Origin: Chloroflexota bacterium
GTDB taxonomy: Bacteria > Chloroflexota > UBA11872 > VXOZ01
Assembly (NCBI GenBank): GCA_026710945.1
Contig: JAPOQA010000035.1
Span: forward strand, 1 to 64,000
DNA length: 64,000 nucleotides
Reading direction: 5' to 3'
In this document: piece by piece, positions 15,555 through 37,092 of the stretch
Layout: the number at the start of each line of letters is the position of its first letter
Position numbering within the stretch: position 1 is the stretch's first letter
Position numbers and translations under genes: made by a program
The notes under the pieces: generated by a model
The model's input: only the letters and a program-made list of their open reading frames with translations
Told to the model about the DNA's origin: nothing
Database searches by the model: none

Positions 15555-16598
15555 ATGGCTGTGCAGGAAGGAAATCATACCGCGTTCAAGACTTTCCACA
15601 AGACATCCCTCGGTGAAGTGATCCATGGTGATAGCCTGCACGTGCTTGCCACATACGCCGATAATTCCGTTAATCTGATTATGACTAGCCCACCGTTTGG
15701 ATTAGTCCGGAAGAAGGAGTACGGCAATGTTGAGGCTAGCGAATATGTCGATTGGTTCAAGCCTTTTGGCGCCGAGTTTCATCGAGTTCTCACGGAGAAC
15801 GGCAGTCTGGTCATTGATATCGGTGGCGCATGGAACAGCGGCTATCCCACTCGCAACCTCTATCATTTCAAGCTGCTAATCATGCTTTGTGAAGAGATCG
15901 GCTTTCACCTCGCACAAGAATTCTACTGGTGGAACCCTTCTAAGCTCCCAACACCTGCCGAATGGGTTACCGTACGGCGCCTCCGCGTCAAGGACGCCAT
16001 CAACACCGTATGGTGGTTGTCCAAGACACCCTGGCCCAAGGCAAGTAACCGCCGCGTTCTCCAACCCTATAGCGCAAGCATGCAAGACCTACTCGAAAAA
16101 GGTTACAAGGCGAAGAAGCGACCTTCAGGCCATGACATCAGCGAGAAGTTCAGCATCGACAACGGCGCTGCAATTCCGCCTAACCTCCTTGCGATTCCCA
16201 ATACTGAGAGCAATAGCTTCTACCTCCGTTACTGCGAAGAACACGGGATGAAGCCGCATCCTGCCCGGTTTCCGGCGGAACTTCCCGAATATTTCGTCCG
16301 TATGCTGACAGACCCTGATGACTTCGTGGTTGATCCTTTTGCTGGCAGTTGTGTGACTGGCGAAGTCTGTGAGCGCACAAATCGACGCTGGACATGCATA
16401 GAACTACTACACGAATACTGTGAAGCCGCCCTCGGCCGTTTTGTTCGCGATCCAAGTGAGACCACTAAGTCTGATTCCTATCCCAGTGATCCCTCAAACT
16501 ATTACCGCGTTCCCCGACCTGGCATTCTGTGGGATAGAACTCACAACGGCTCTTTGCCCAAGGACGGCGGTAGGAAGCGCCGTATAAAGGCGACTTGA
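15555..16598 (+). CDS. beta-class DNA methyltransferase (N4-cytosine or N6-adenine) of the R-M pair
   Basis: A 347-residue S-adenosylmethionine-dependent DNA methyltransferase. The catalytic motif IV TSPPFG occurs early (about residue 46) and the SAM-binding motif I DPFAGSCVTG late (about residue 261), the order of the beta class. The intervening ~150 residues hold the likely target-recognition region. SPPF is commonest in N4-cytosine enzymes, but N6-adenine cannot be excluded. Motif I has Cys where Gly is usual (GSCVTG). The ATG at 15555 lies too close to the upstream GGGAG; GTG at 15561 has better spacing and may be the true start. Its job is to protect host DNA from the upstream endonuclease. 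Confidence 0.88.
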   Translation: MAVQEGNHTAFKTFHKTSLGEVIHGDSLHVLATYADNSVNLIMTSPPFGLVRKKEYGNVEASEYVDWFKPFGAEFHRVLTENGSLVIDIGGAWNSGYPTRNLYHFKLLIMLCEEIGFHLAQEFYWWNPSKLPTPAEWVTVRRLRVKDAINTVWWLSKTPWPKASNRRVLQPYSASMQDLLEKGYKAKKRPSGHDISEKFSIDNGAAIPPNLLAIPNTESNSFYLRYCEEHGMKPHPARFPAELPEYFVRMLTDPDDFVVDPFAGSCVTGEVCERTNRRWTCIELLHEYCEAALGRFVRDPSETTKSDSYPSDPSNYYRVPRPGILWDRTHNGSLPKDGGRKRRIKAT

Positions 16599-30688: not shown

Positions 30689-31624
30689 GTGCTTCAACCA
30701 CGCCGATTTGCGGGGTTAGTCTTCGTGCTCATCATTGCGTTCGCACTCTCAGGTTGCGCCATAGAGACAGGTGAGCTTCCACCGGAGTCGGCTGACGCGA
30801 CGGTAAGTCCCAGGGCCACGGGCGTAGCGCAGTCTGACCAGAGCACGGAGTGCCCGGTAACGACACCCGTTCAGGTGCACCCGCCGGAGCTGATTCACGA
30901 GAGTAGTCCGCTGCCGCGTGGCGAGTATTTTGTGAGCGTCGATAAGAAGATCTGGGCAGTCGCAGTGCCATGGCGACAAGGGAGCCACAAAGTACCCTGG
31001 ATCAAGCCGCTTGGATCGCAATTGGTGATACAGGGGCGGCGTCTCGACGGTGACTCCGCTCCGCTCTGGGCTTCGCTGCCCGCAGGGTATACCAATGACT
31101 TTCAACCGAGCCGTTTGATATTCTCGGCCCCCGGCTGTTGGGAGATTGAGGCCCGGGCGGATGCGAGCGTGTTGCGCATTGTAGTTGAGGTCGCGTCGCA
31201 GACGGAACCACGGAGAGCGCCATCGTGCGCGGATGCGAGCCATGTACTGCACATTAACCGGCCGATCATTCACGGCCGCATTGAGAGCAGCACGGTCGAT
31301 TCAAGCGGGCGCTGGGGGTGGCTGACTGTACGGGTCGTGCGTGACCTGATGCATCCCTTCGCATTGCATTCGGTGCAAGCCGGCCAAACGCTCATGGTAC
31401 TGCAGGACACAGAAAGGGAGCCATTCCTCGCGCGGGACGAGGATTACGTACTCGTGCTTGATGGTGCGCCGTGGCAAATTGTGTGTCCGCTCCAGACGTT
31501 GGCGGCGATTGACAGCGCGCATAGGCCAATTACCATTGAACCTGTGCTGCCCAGGCTGACACTCTGGACCGGTGAGACACTAACGGAGATAGAAGCGCAA
31601 GTCAGAGAGGCTATCAGAAGGTAG
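30689..31624 (+). CDS. lipoprotein of unknown function
   Basis: A 311-residue protein with a Sec lipoprotein signal: basic start, hydrophobic core and lipobox LSGC (Cys23). After a Ser/Thr-rich linker the mature part appears beta-rich and includes SAPGCWEIEARADASVLRIVV, a pattern common in secreted Ig-like domains of Gram-positive-type and Chloroflexota proteins. Start is GTG 30689, preceded by GGGATGAGA. It is divergent from lysA and stands alone. No catalytic motif is visible; a structural or binding role outside the membrane is only a guess. Confidence 0.65.
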   Translation: MLQPRRFAGLVFVLIIAFALSGCAIETGELPPESADATVSPRATGVAQSDQSTECPVTTPVQVHPPELIHESSPLPRGEYFVSVDKKIWAVAVPWRQGSHKVPWIKPLGSQLVIQGRRLDGDSAPLWASLPAGYTNDFQPSRLIFSAPGCWEIEARADASVLRIVVEVASQTEPRRAPSCADASHVLHINRPIIHGRIESSTVDSSGRWGWLTVRVVRDLMHPFALHSVQAGQTLMVLQDTEREPFLARDEDYVLVLDGAPWQIVCPLQTLAAIDSAHRPITIEPVLPRLTLWTGETLTEIEAQVREAIRR

Positions 31625-31790: not shown

Positions 31791-33865
31791 TCACTCAGCA
31801 ATCTGCAGGGACACGACGTCAATTTCATCCAAGCGCGGCAGCGTAACGAACGTGTGCTTGCCTTTGCGCTCAACGTGCACAGGTTGGCCGCTGGCGGCGG
31901 TTGCCGCGCTGACCCCGAGCGCTGTCTTGATGGTTACGTCGGCTAACGGCACCGCTTCCGGTATGTCGACCCAGGCCCCGGCGCGCCGACCGCGGCCAAC
32001 GCCATCGCCGAGGGGCCGTGTCACGGGACAGTTGACGAGAAAGAGCTTGAGTTCGTTGCCGTCTTTGGTGTAGGTGGCTTCAACGTTGGGCACGCCTTGC
32101 AGTCGCAGGTCGGCGGCATAGCCGATGAACTGCAGTATCCGCATTGCCATGCGTCCAAAGGCCCGCGCGCCCCGCACATGTATTCAGCGAACGGCTCATG
32201 GTTGCAGTAGGCGATTTGGCCCGCGCCCATACGCCCAAAGACCACCGCCGGCATGCCGGTCTCCGTGCTCCAGCGCGTGCCGTGGCTGTCCCACACCTCG
32301 CCATGGGGCTCAACGACGGGTTTTAGAGTATACGCAAGCTCCCCAAAGCCGGGAAAATTCCGCAGCGGCCAGTGGCCGAGGGAACATGCCAACTCCCAAT
32401 CCGGAATCTGCCACGCCTCAGGCGCGTGGATAAACCAACCGTCCTGGCGCCTCCCACGATGGTCTTGCCTATCGGCGAGAATGATGTCGAGTTCGCGCTG
32501 CAGGTTGTTCGCGCCGGTGACGAGCATCCGGCCGCCGCCTTCCACGAATTCCCGCAGGAATGGCAGCGATTCCGGCCGGAGATCGCCCGGATGGGCGACG
32601 ATGACTGCTTTCAAGCCGGCGAGATCGGATGCCTCCAGCATGTCATCGCAGAGGAGCCGGAAGGGAAAGTGCTGTTCGGTAAGGTACTTGTACGCGCCGG
32701 CCGTGTCGCGGCTGAAGCCCTGTACGGTTGGCACGTTCCCGATCGCCACCTGCTCTTCAGAGTAGAGCAGGCCGACTTCCGCGTATGCTGTAGCTCGTGC
32801 ACGCTCATCTGCGAGCGGCCCAATCTTCTCAAATGTCGCAGCTACCTTATTCAGCACCGGTTCGCCAAAGAAGCCCGTACGCGTGTCCGGCGCACCCCAG
32901 ATGGTCGTGGTGTCGGCTCCCGCCGCCAGAGCGCTGGCGGCCTGGTACGTTAGTTGGCATTCGCTGACCCCCGCGTACATGACGTTGTCCCAGCAGAAGG
33001 CGATTTCGACGGGTCGCCCCTTCGCCACTGCCCGCAGCCGGTGCGTCTGCATGGCGGGCGCAAAGAAGTTGGCGCCGGTGGCATCGGATTCGCCAAAGAG
33101 GTAGTCATCATGCATGTAGGGCCAGAAGGCGTTATGAGTGAGCTGAATGTCTTTGCCGCTGGCTTGGATGCGCTCCTTTACGCCTGCGAGATACGTTTCA
33201 ACTACGTGATTGCCAAAGGCGGCGAGGCGTGCCCGGTGCTCCAGCGCAAAGCGACGGCGATGTCCGCGCGCGCCGCGCCCTCTTCTAGATCGGCGCTGAG
33301 GGCCGGAAGGAGGCACCGGCACCTCGGGAAAGGGCTCTCCAAAGAATTCTCCCCAGGCTTGCCGGCAGTGATCGCAGAAACAGAGCATCCGGTAGTGGAC
33401 GATGTCCAAGAACAGCCGTGAAAACGTGTATTGGGAAAGCAACTCGTCGAGCATGGCGTAGGTGTAGTCGCGATAGGGCGAGTTGAGACAGAGCCAGCGC
33501 CAGCGCGTGTGCGGGCCGGGCTGAGGGTTGCCGTCTGAATCGTGGCTGCGCCACTCAGGATGGGACCGATAGGCGTGCTCGTCCCAACGCACCGAGTAAT
33601 AGAGCGCCGGATCTATACCATGCTCGCGCGCAGCGTTAGTCTGGGCCGCGATCAGGTCGAAGTCGAGCGCCGGATGCCGCTTGCCGACGGCAGTGTCATA
33701 GTACGTGTGACCCCAATGGCACTTGGCTTGCAGCAACACTCCGTCCGTACCGATGTCGCCCAACGCCGCCATCTGCGCGGCGGGATCCACCTGTGAGAGC
33801 GTGTGTGCGCCGTAGGGGCCAAAATGATTATCGATAAGTATTTGTTTTGGGCCTGCTTCTGCCAT
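31791..33865 (-). pseudogene. glycoside-hydrolase-like gene (beta-galactosidase trimerisation-type) with frameshift
   Basis: Reads as a ~690-residue protein with an N-terminal TIM-barrel-like glycosidase domain (FLDIVHYRMLCFCDHCR, typical of GH42/GHL families) and a central glutamine-amidotransferase-like trimerisation domain (LAGLKAVIVAHPGDLRPES, FVEGGGRMLVTG). From 33865 the frame is open to 32021, but after EYMCGAR (about 32165) the residues turn into nonsense. The family-like continuation (GRMAMRILQFIGYAADLRLQ and on to 31791) is in another frame. The shift falls in a GCGCGCGGG run, so it is either a real mutation or an assembly error. If corrected, the C-terminal beta-sandwich domain is complete. 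Confidence 0.8.
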
Positions 33866-34008: not shown

Positions 34009-37000
34009 ATGCTACTTACCTCGCAGCTAATTGCCAACTTGCCAGACTTGCCAGCCGGGGCTGACACTCTTGGCGGTCGATTTGGAGCGCCGCCCGTGTT
34101 AGGCGGTATTATAGGCGGTAGAGCAGACTGCATTTTGATCGGTAATCGCAAAGTGAACGTGCGCCCGTCCGACACTGCTACAGCAAGAGAGAGCTCCCCG
34201 CGCCTGCCCATAGAATTGCAAGAGGCGGTGGCTGCTGAAGTTGCGGCTATGAAGGCCCAAGCGGCAACGTTTCATGCGGAGGTGTTGTCCGGCACACTGA
34301 CTTCAGAGGCAGACAGCGACTATACCTATGCGTTCTCATTGAGTTCGCTGCTGCCAATCCCGGATGATACGCCGGGCGAACTCCACATTGGGAGCCAGGT
34401 GCATCCATGCCGCATTATTGCCGTGCAAGGGTTGCGCGCGTCGCTGCGGCTGGCAGTTGCTCCCGCACGCTTCATCGAGCGCGCCACACTTGTGGCGCAA
34501 CCGTGGGTTGCGCTTGCGCGGCTCCACGCGGCGCTTGGGGAGCAGTCGAGCGAGCCAGGCACGAGCCCAGGATTGAGTGCTGCGCTCTTTGAAGGTGAAT
34601 CTTTAGCCGCAGAAGAGGTACGCGAAGATACGACAAGCTCTCAGGCGACGATGCTCGACGAGGCACAGCAGCAGGCGCTTGACACAGCACTTCAAAGAAC
34701 GGTGACGGTCATTGCCGGTCCGGCAAACTCCGGGAAGACCCACCTGCTCAGCAGCATTGCGGCAGCCAGTATTGCGGCCGGCTATCGTGTGCTCGTGCTC
34801 GCTCCCTCCAACAGCGCGATAGATTCAGTGCTCCGAACGTTGATCGAGACCGGAAGCAGGACCGCCTATACAGCCGGTGAGGTGCTCCGGAGCGGCTGCA
34901 GCGCAGATCCGGCTGCGCAAAGCGCCTACCCATTGCTTGCAATGGAGCGAGCTGAAAGCCACCTCAAAGACGAGCTTGAGCAAGAGCTGGCGGCTCTGCA
35001 GGCTGAGCGCAAGGCTCTGGCGGAGCGAAATCAAGCCCTTCGCGTCCTGCAGAAGGCCGTAGGTCTGGCTCAGCGGGCAGCGGAGGAGCGTGATGCTGTG
35101 CAGGCAGAGGTGGCTGCGCTGCTGGCGCGGCAGGAAGCCGCGGCGCCCAGACCTGTTGAACCCTCGGGAGTGCAGTATTTGAAGGAGCGGTGGGAGCTTG
35201 TGTGGCAGCAGGCCAGGCGTCTCACCCGGCGGTCCACAGGTGTTGGCCGGCGCACCTTTCGCGTTGATCCGGAGCGGCAGCGGCAGGAGGCCTACGGATT
35301 TGCGCAACGGCTTGCGGAAGCGCGGCGCCGTCTCGCAGAGAATGAGGCGGCTGCGGAGCGCCTGCGTGCCAGCATTCAGCAACAGCTTGCGCAGTACGAG
35401 CTGACCACTGACAGTTTTGATGCGGCGCTTGCAGATACGGAAGCACGCCTGAGTGAAGTGGATGAAAAGCACCGGAATGCTTTGGGCGGGATGAAAGGCG
35501 TGCGACTCGCCACCCGCGAACGAGCACGACTTGTGGCGAGCACGGTCTCGCAAGCTCTCGCCGCGGAATCCCACGCTGCTGAATCGTTTGACGTCGTGCT
35601 GATTGACGACGCCCACGGTATTCCTTTGCCGCATATCTTCTGGGCCGCGGGCCTCGCGCACTCGCGTCTCGTAGTTTCGACCGAGGAGACCGCGCTACAA
35701 CCCTGGCACTGCGCCCATACTGCGGTTGCCGGGCGCTGGCTGGGACGCTCGTTTGTTGAATACATGGCGGGCTTGGGGACGCAATCTGCAGCCTGGGTAG
35801 TCAACCTCTTGGAACGCCATACGCTCCAGCCGTCGTTTGCCGAAGCCGTCTCGCGCTGGCTCGACGTTGCCGGGGACGGCAGCAAATCGCTGTTAATGCA
35901 GGCGCCAAGCCGACTGCAGGGGCCGCGCCGCAGCGTGCGGCGACGCTTACCGGTGCGCGGACATACCGTGCCCCTTGAGAAGGCGTTGGGGCAGGAAAGT
36001 CCATTGTTGCTCGTAGATACCGGTGCATTGAAGCCGTGGAGTGAAGCGATCCCGCAGGAAGGGCGCATGAACATCGGGGGCGCCCTTGCGGCGGTAGCGC
36101 TCGCGGAACGGGTCCACGCGGCAGAACCAAAGGCAACAGTTGCAGTCGTGACGCCATACGCTGCACAAGCTCGTCTCTTGCTTCACTTGGCCCGAGACCG
36201 GGAGATTAACGCCGGTATCGACATTTACGCGCCTCCATGCCTGCCTCAGCGGGGGGCAGACATTGTAATTTTGGATACTGTGGAGACGCCGGGTACTTTC
36301 ACTTGGTCTGCTCTTGACGATTCCCGCCCCGATTCCCAGGCGTATGCCCTCTTTAGCGGCGTGTTTAGTCAGGCGCGGCAGCGGGTGATGATCGTCGCCC
36401 ATTGGAAGCACGTGCGCGACACGTTTGGCGCGCGTGCGCTCATGCGGCGCATGTTGGGAGAGGCCGTGCAGTCCGGGTGGGCGGTTTCGGCGTCCGAGCT
36501 TGTGCGAAGCGAACGTGCCGGTGCGCTGCCACGCGTTCCGTTGGCGCCGTCTCACTCCAAAGGAGCGGGCGCCAAACGGTCCGGCAAACCTACCGGCTGG
36601 CACCTTCTCTTGGAAGACCTGCAAGCGGCAGAGCGCCATGTGACCGTGTGGAGTCCGCATTTGGCATTGTCCACCGTGGAACGCCTGCTAGACTCGCTGC
36701 CGTCCGCGCTCTTGGAGCGTGGCGCGGTGAGAGTTATCACCCTTCCTCCCGCTCAGCAGAGGGGGCAACGAGCACAGGGGGCTGAGGCGCGGCAGGTATG
36801 TGAACAGGTCGGTGCGGTTGTAGAAGAACGCAGCGCGCTGGCAGCAAGTCTTGTGACCGTGGACGACCGCCTGACTTGGGAATGTACATTCCCGCCGCTC
36901 GGGGCCGTCAGCCGCGGTGCGGAATTGCGCCGAGTTGAGAGTGAGCAGATCGCGAGGACGCTGCGGAAGCTCCTGGCGCCGCCACATAGCGCCGCCGCTC

Positions 37001-37092
37001 CCCAGGACATGGCAGCTTTCATGCCCTACACTGAGGCAGCGAGCTTATTGACCCAAGCTGGCTCCTATTCTCCTGCACGGGAGCTGCGGTAG
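34009..37092 (+). CDS. UPF1/DNA2-like SF1 helicase with coiled coil and degenerate PLD-like C-terminus
   Basis: A 1027-residue protein. Residues ~230-310 hold the first RecA half with Walker A GPANSGKT (237-244). Residues ~320-490 are a long coiled-coil-like insertion rich in Ala, Glu, Arg and Leu. Walker B follows as VVLIDDAHG (~530). The second RecA half includes ADIVILDTVETPG and FSQARQRVMIVA (~750-795), matching UPF1/DNA2 motifs V and VI. Motif III is degenerate (STEETALQP for GDxxQLPP). Residues ~870-1010 resemble the PLD-like module of helicase-PLD proteins (VWSPHLALSTVERLLDSL), but the HxKxxxxD motif is lost (ALAASLVTVDD). The architecture is like type II Mokosh defence proteins; activity is doubtful. 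It stands alone. Confidence 0.75.
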   Translation: MLLTSQLIANLPDLPAGADTLGGRFGAPPVLGGIIGGRADCILIGNRKVNVRPSDTATARESSPRLPIELQEAVAAEVAAMKAQAATFHAEVLSGTLTSEADSDYTYAFSLSSLLPIPDDTPGELHIGSQVHPCRIIAVQGLRASLRLAVAPARFIERATLVAQPWVALARLHAALGEQSSEPGTSPGLSAALFEGESLAAEEVREDTTSSQATMLDEAQQQALDTALQRTVTVIAGPANSGKTHLLSSIAAASIAAGYRVLVLAPSNSAIDSVLRTLIETGSRTAYTAGEVLRSGCSADPAAQSAYPLLAMERAESHLKDELEQELAALQAERKALAERNQALRVLQKAVGLAQRAAEERDAVQAEVAALLARQEAAAPRPVEPSGVQYLKERWELVWQQARRLTRRSTGVGRRTFRVDPERQRQEAYGFAQRLAEARRRLAENEAAAERLRASIQQQLAQYELTTDSFDAALADTEARLSEVDEKHRNALGGMKGVRLATRERARLVASTVSQALAAESHAAESFDVVLIDDAHGIPLPHIFWAAGLAHSRLVVSTEETALQPWHCAHTAVAGRWLGRSFVEYMAGLGTQSAAWVVNLLERHTLQPSFAEAVSRWLDVAGDGSKSLLMQAPSRLQGPRRSVRRRLPVRGHTVPLEKALGQESPLLLVDTGALKPWSEAIPQEGRMNIGGALAAVALAERVHAAEPKATVAVVTPYAAQARLLLHLARDREINAGIDIYAPPCLPQRGADIVILDTVETPGTFTWSALDDSRPDSQAYALFSGVFSQARQRVMIVAHWKHVRDTFGARALMRRMLGEAVQSGWAVSASELVRSERAGALPRVPLAPSHSKGAGAKRSGKPTGWHLLLEDLQAAERHVTVWSPHLALSTVERLLDSLPSALLERGAVRVITLPPAQQRGQRAQGAEARQVCEQVGAVVEERSALAASLVTVDDRLTWECTFPPLGAVSRGAELRRVESEQIARTLRKLLAPPHSAAAPQDMAAFMPYTEAASLLTQAGSYSPARELR

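Follow-up and report, generated by a model that had tools for sequence, protein, structure and literature searches.

A candidate pseudo-helicase/pseudo-nuclease held at one chromosomal site in a genus of Chloroflexota

The 64-kb stretch of Chloroflexota DNA analyzed here (the window) contains a solitary gene, with both flanking genes on the opposite strand, whose product joins a UPF1-like helicase to a C-terminal segment patterned like a PLD nuclease. A first-pass annotation made from the letters alone had raised the possibility that this is a type II Mokosh anti-phage protein, and it had also pointed out that the presumed catalytic residues look wrong. The question that this locus raises is whether the gene encodes a working defense enzyme, a decaying remnant of one, or a protein kept for something other than catalysis.

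The gene and its helicase core

The open reading frame from 34009 to 37092 (+) was confirmed to be open throughout its 1,027 codons. However, the orthologs in the genus begin at codon 49 (GTG 34153), where the six genomes have GTG, GTG, GTG, GTG, TTG, and ATG, and the 48 codons preceding this position show no conservation among them. For this reason, the start is probably GTG 34153 rather than ATG 34009, which gives a protein of 979 amino acids. The full-length frame is open in five copies, and the sixth is cut by a contig end. A promoter and terminator scan gave nothing above chance, and Rfam and tRNA searches of the 64-kb window returned zero matches. Coordinates are collected in Table 1.

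Table 1. Positions of features in the helicase-PLD gene, numbered within the window, with residues counted from GTG 34153
Feature	Positions	Strand	Observation
Whole gene	34153..37092	+	979 aa; likely GTG start, stop 37090-37092; start position and frame shared by six orthologs, dN/dS 0.22-0.28
N-terminal beta-rich region and stalk helix (aa 1-160)	34153..34632	+	Aligns with G343; strands 43-115 in model
Motif I/Walker A GPANSGKT (aa 189-196)	34717..34740	+	G, K, T kept (motif table)
Coiled-coil insertion, motifs Ia-II (aa 264-455)	34942..35517	+	AF2 helices; aligns with G343 region
Motif II VVLIDDAHG (aa 481-489)	35593..35619	+	Asp in place of the catalytic Glu of DE (6/6)
Motif III position STEETALQP (aa 509-517)	35677..35703	+	Replaces xGDxxQLPP
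Motif IV position LLERHTLQP (aa 552-560)	35806..35832	+	Replaces QYRMHP; Arg position lost
Motif V position YAPPCLPQ (aa 692-699)	36226..36249	+	Replaces xTVHxFQG
Motif VI position GVFSQARQR (aa 736-744)	36358..36384	+	Replaces NVAxTRAR; Arg of AR kept; R742 invariant
Degenerate PLD domain (aa 815-925)	36595..36927	+	hhalign 98% vs intact PLDs; best conserved domain in genus
Former HKD active site RSALAASLVTVDDRLTWECTFPPL (aa 893-916)	36829..36900	+	H to A, K to S/N, D kept, GSxN to CTFP
C-terminal tail (aa 926-979)	36928..37089	+	No Cys cluster; topoisomerase-type zinc ribbon (Zn_ribbon_Top1) there in the lineage's PLD-bearing relatives

By homology, the protein is a UPF1/SMUBP2-like SF1 helicase: its core matches Pfam AAA_11 (1.8e-14) and AAA_12 (4.6e-4), and its sequence matches in the PDB are SMUBP2, UPF1, NAM7, and DNA2. 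The Foldseek search proposed in the first-pass annotation could be carried through for the helicase, with Setx, Ighmbp2, Upf1, and Sen1 as best matches to a low-confidence predicted model, but not for the C-terminus. The AF2 model of the whole protein is poor (mean pLDDT of 52), and that of the C-terminus alone (pLDDT of 38) is unusable for a fold search, so we judged retained folds from sequence profiles. The N-terminal beta-rich region with its stalk helix is probably the equivalent of the UPF1-type OB/stalk (1B). The coiled-coil insertion that had been read from the sequence is present in the AF2 model as long helices (264-330, 339-358, 373-414, and 422-448) with pLDDT mostly above 80, and intact relatives also carry aligned helical insertions.

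The motif set of an active UPF1/DNA2-like helicase is not preserved in any of the six genus genomes. Motif I is kept as GxxxxGKT and motif VI in part, with TRA(K/R) changed to xxAR. In motif II, DE has become DD; xGDxxQLPP of motif III has become (S/T/A)(T/A)(E/D)xxxLxP; QYRM of motif IV has become ER(H/Y)xL, with a residue that varies within the genus at the place of the Arg; and TVHxFQG of motif V has become (Y/F)APPxLPx. Thus, the motif II Glu, motif III, the motif IV Arg, and motif V are lost in 6/6, while the Q-motif Gln (Q172, an invariant column slightly upstream of motif I), the Walker A GKT, the Walker B Asp, and the motif VI Arg are retained. The first-pass annotation had called only motif III and the HKD positions abnormal; the motif table extends this to motifs II, IV, and V.

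A degenerate PLD domain and its intact relatives

Homology of the C-terminus to PLD nucleases was established through profiles. Aligned by hhalign, the six-ortholog profile of the C-terminus alone matches six intact PLDs at 98% (E=3e-13) with the HKD columns in register, while the probability for two unrelated control proteins was 0.1 and 0.3%. The match to the PLD of one Vibrio MkoC was weak, at only 4%, and the PLD claim is therefore based on the family profile. In a BLASTP comparison with G343, an intact relative, the alignment remains collinear across the PLD (aa 69 to 975 of the 1,027-aa frame, E=1e-75). Pfam and PDB sequence searches with the C-terminus alone did not detect a PLD, and the link was made only via intact relatives and the PADLOC MkoC model. 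On these alignments, the C-terminus is a true but degenerate PLD domain, homologous to the PLD superfamily, and the helicase-PLD architecture proposed at first reading holds.

PLD catalysis depends on a His nucleophile and a Lys. In place of the signature HxKx4Dx6GSxN, all six genus members have AxS/N x4 D followed by CTFP, and the HKD Lys position itself varies between S and N. The region is nevertheless well conserved: 54% of columns are invariant in aa 813 to 916 versus 34% over the whole protein, and the HKD stretch, with 20/27 invariant columns, ties with the former motif V-VI block as the most conserved 27-aa window, which means that the altered sites are themselves constrained. That the old active-site stretch is conserved so strongly, and that several substituted residues (D486, A897, C911, T912, and P914) are invariant, would fit an enzyme that is still active through its substitutions, with Walker B Asp standing in for Glu and a PLD site rebuilt with D904/D905, C911, or T912. 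Some activity can persist when Asp replaces the Walker B Glu. However, the His nucleophile and the Lys are missing in 6/6, three helicase motifs (III, IV, and V) are lost jointly, and neither the motif IV Arg place nor the HKD Lys position is held constant, and we consider continued catalysis improbable.

Relatives with the order helicase, PLD, and Zn ribbon occur in other Chloroflexota (G343, L049:6884-9871; G193, a TIR fusion, L050:3614-7423; G316, L051; and G162, L125). Motifs II to VI are essentially canonical in the lineage relatives that cover those sites, and HxK..D..GSxN is intact in eight relatives, namely, G343, G193, G316, G162, and G221, which are of the Zn-ribbon type, and three MkoC proteins. 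The G193 protein (-) is a 1,270-aa chain of TIR, UPF1-like helicase, coiled coil, PLD, and zinc ribbon, and it is likely a defense protein of unusual architecture. Two further relatives, from Aulosira (L097:3968-6595) and Cytobacillus spongiae (L101:3581-5803), retain a canonical set of helicase motifs, but at the PLD position neither H nor K is present; their sequences raise the possibility that the PLD has eroded repeatedly and independently. Two related helicases (L121 and L122, in G274 and G151) have in-frame stops.

In an IQ-TREE phylogeny, the genus members form a single clade, and a long stem (1.61 changes per site) precedes their radiation, after which branches are shorter. They fall in a 100/100 group with G343, the G193 TIR fusion, G316, G052, Aulosira, and Cytobacillus, a group from which the three MkoC proteins are separated; within that group the sister of the genus is unsettled, and letter composition differs among rows, a difference that the tree models leave out of account. 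The same split bears on the suggestion that the protein is a genuine type II Mokosh defense protein (MkoC). The order of helicase and PLD is alike, and the PADLOC MkoC model matches all six orthologs, in the window protein at its C-terminal stretch. However, this match is 39 bits over ~100 of 1,136 model positions and covers the PLD only, compared with 929 to 1,411 bits from end to end for real MkoC proteins, which themselves keep the HKD intact and the helicase motifs canonical. We therefore reject the MkoC identity, which has hardly any probability left, and a low-scoring match to an MkoC or MkoA profile should not be taken as a Mokosh system. Judged from sequence, the ancestor of the protein is related to type II Mokosh but distinct from it. 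One full-length MkoC (L100:1934-5449), on a Vibrio coralliilyticus plasmid, adjoins the defense reverse transcriptase drt3a.

Occurrence, neighborhood, and selection

The gene is present in 6/6 genomes of the genus, in which the five other copies are 55 to 66% identical to that of the window; this sample consists entirely of MAGs, and the alignment is shallow. A scan of genome contigs with the single protein as the query found zero matches, and the same scan with the ortholog alignment found the five other genus members. These relatives are Chloroflexi/Chloroflexota MAGs that, from names such as SB0662_bin_44, we presume to come from sponges. At a cutoff of 1e-25, the 35 other genomes searched in the class gave no match, and no intact close paralog was seen in the genus genomes. 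Viral scans found no copy of this subfamily, and the intact lineage matched only distant helicases there.

Gene order around the helicase-PLD gene is conserved (lysA-like decarboxylase, lipoprotein, GHL6-type hydrolase, helicase, YbaK-type, SDR, methyltransferase, and enolase-superfamily genes), with all flanking genes found in the G001 to G004 stretches and the G005 contig covering only the upstream side. Defense genes on mobile elements or islands are marked by patchy presence, variable location, and defense neighbors, and this gene instead sits at one syntenic site in 6/6 genomes. PADLOC, run on ten window open reading frames, gave only generic or orphan methyltransferase matches and no defense system adjoining the gene. 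The first-pass annotation had stated that its reading would be refuted if all homologs lay in housekeeping surroundings without defense genes, and this holds in part: the genus has a syntenic housekeeping neighborhood with no detected defense partner, and the wider lineage includes one clear defense-like member, the TIR fusion.

Several other genes of the window deserve mention. An N6/N4 DNA methyltransferase at 15555-16595 (+) (PF01555, 2.5e-39; PADLOC MTase_II, 402 bits) appears to be an orphan, with no restriction enzyme recognized. The GHL6-type hydrolase (31791-33865, -) appears split over two frames (32021-33865 and 31791-32177), while its relatives have a single open frame of 700 to 744 aa, and the split would be either a frameshift or an assembly error. 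The putative lipoprotein at 30689-31624 (+), which has no Pfam match, is 45 to 48% identical within the genus versus 80 to 95% for most neighbors and evolves as fast as the helicase.

In 15/15 ortholog pairs, close pairs included, dN/dS of the helicase-PLD gene is 0.22 to 0.28. The dS of ~1.0 to 1.5 is like that of most neighboring genes (0.7 to 1.5), and dN is several times higher than theirs; we therefore conclude that the gene has descended vertically at a faster protein rate. Most flanking genes have dN/dS of ~0.04 to 0.17, and the lipoprotein resembles the helicase. By region, pN/pS is lowest in the PLD (0.29) and RecA2 (0.30). The protein is under purifying selection, and constraint outside these two regions is moderate, given a dN/dS above that of most neighbors. 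These values lead us to reject a decaying pseudogene. The many lost catalytic residues and the raised dN might have indicated decay, but the low dN/dS of every pair, the five full-length open frames, and the invariant blocks that center on the altered sites leave that reading very little probability.

The main rival is that the protein is still anti-phage, as a noncatalytic sensor or decoy in which helicase and PLD surfaces recognize invading nucleic acid and then signal or recruit another factor. It draws on the TIR-helicase-PLD-Zn fusion in the lineage, the weak matches of the orthologs to Mokosh models, a rate of evolution that would fit a conflict gene, and the sensor role proposed for inactive REase and P-loop domains in BREX-type systems (PMC12839542). 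We regard it as rather unlikely, given a presence in 6/6 genomes at one site between opposite-strand flanks and no defense gene detected among the flanking genes tested; moreover, our searches found no close copy of the subfamily in phages or plasmids.

Proposed role and comparison with known systems

We favor, with a probability of roughly 0.6, the reading that the gene encodes a vertically fixed pseudo-helicase/pseudo-nuclease. In this reading, the product descends from a helicase-PLD-Zn-ribbon protein, has been disarmed catalytically, and probably serves as a nucleotide-binding nucleic acid scaffold or sensor. Homology extends along nearly the whole chain, both catalytic sets are lost in 6/6, and the zinc ribbon is absent. 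Loss of the Walker B Glu and of motifs III, IV, and V would have abolished ATP hydrolysis, coupling, and strand translocation, and loss of the His, Lys, GS, and Asn would have abolished phosphodiester cleavage by the PLD. Because the Q-motif Gln, the Walker A GKT, the Walker B Asp, and the motif VI Arg are retained, nucleotide is probably still bound, without productive hydrolysis or translocation. The result would be a nucleotide-switched, nontranslocating binder of nucleic acid or protein, with the pseudo-PLD as a binding or dimerization module. The gene would have become a fixed chromosomal gene of the genus, as opposed to a mobile defense gene, and the fact that every sampled genus genome keeps the disarmed gene at the same place suggests recruitment to a new, probably nonenzymatic job. 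This agrees with the view of the first-pass annotation that the abnormal HKD and motif III point to a divergent or regulatory relative more than to an active nuclease.

More tentatively, a defense-type helicase-nuclease may have been disarmed at both centers in the ancestor of the genus and exapted for a core role in the cell; its dead nuclease site, now among its most constrained surfaces, would be a new ligand or nucleic acid binding site or an active site rebuilt around D904/C911/T912. Pseudohelicases are seldom documented, and one paper names Utp25 and one PriA (PMC9539457). We regard the protein described here as a candidate double pseudoenzyme, for which the intact outgroup is clear, the loss maps to the stem of one genus, and constraint at the altered sites can be measured, and it makes testable the domestication of immune helicase-nucleases into housekeeping roles after their weapons are removed.

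The closest proteins in architecture are the Chloroflexota helicase-PLD-Zn-ribbon proteins, exemplified by G343, which share a collinear N-terminal region, the SF1 core, the helical insertion, and the PLD but differ in that their helicase motifs are canonical, their HKD is intact, and the chain ends in a zinc ribbon. Type II Mokosh MkoC (PADLOC PDLC03924; Vibrio coralliilyticus WP_165579948.1) likewise has an SF1 helicase followed by a single PLD in one chain, but it belongs to another clade and keeps its catalytic residues, and the window protein misses its full-length model. CnuH of CoCoNuT systems, which occurs in McrBC-type operons, has a UPF1-like SF1 core in which Walker A is followed by a helical insertion that is coiled coil in part, and one CnuH type is paired with PLD domains on a separate protein (PMC11090510). 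In contrast, the window gene is solitary, and its product lacks the motif II Glu and motifs III to V. In Utp25 and Deinococcus radiodurans PriA, catalytic motifs are lost and the helicase scaffold is kept, and the D. radiodurans protein retains binding to DNA and to DnaB (PMC9539457). These two belong to other helicase families, and unlike the protein described here, they carry no second, equally disarmed nuclease domain.
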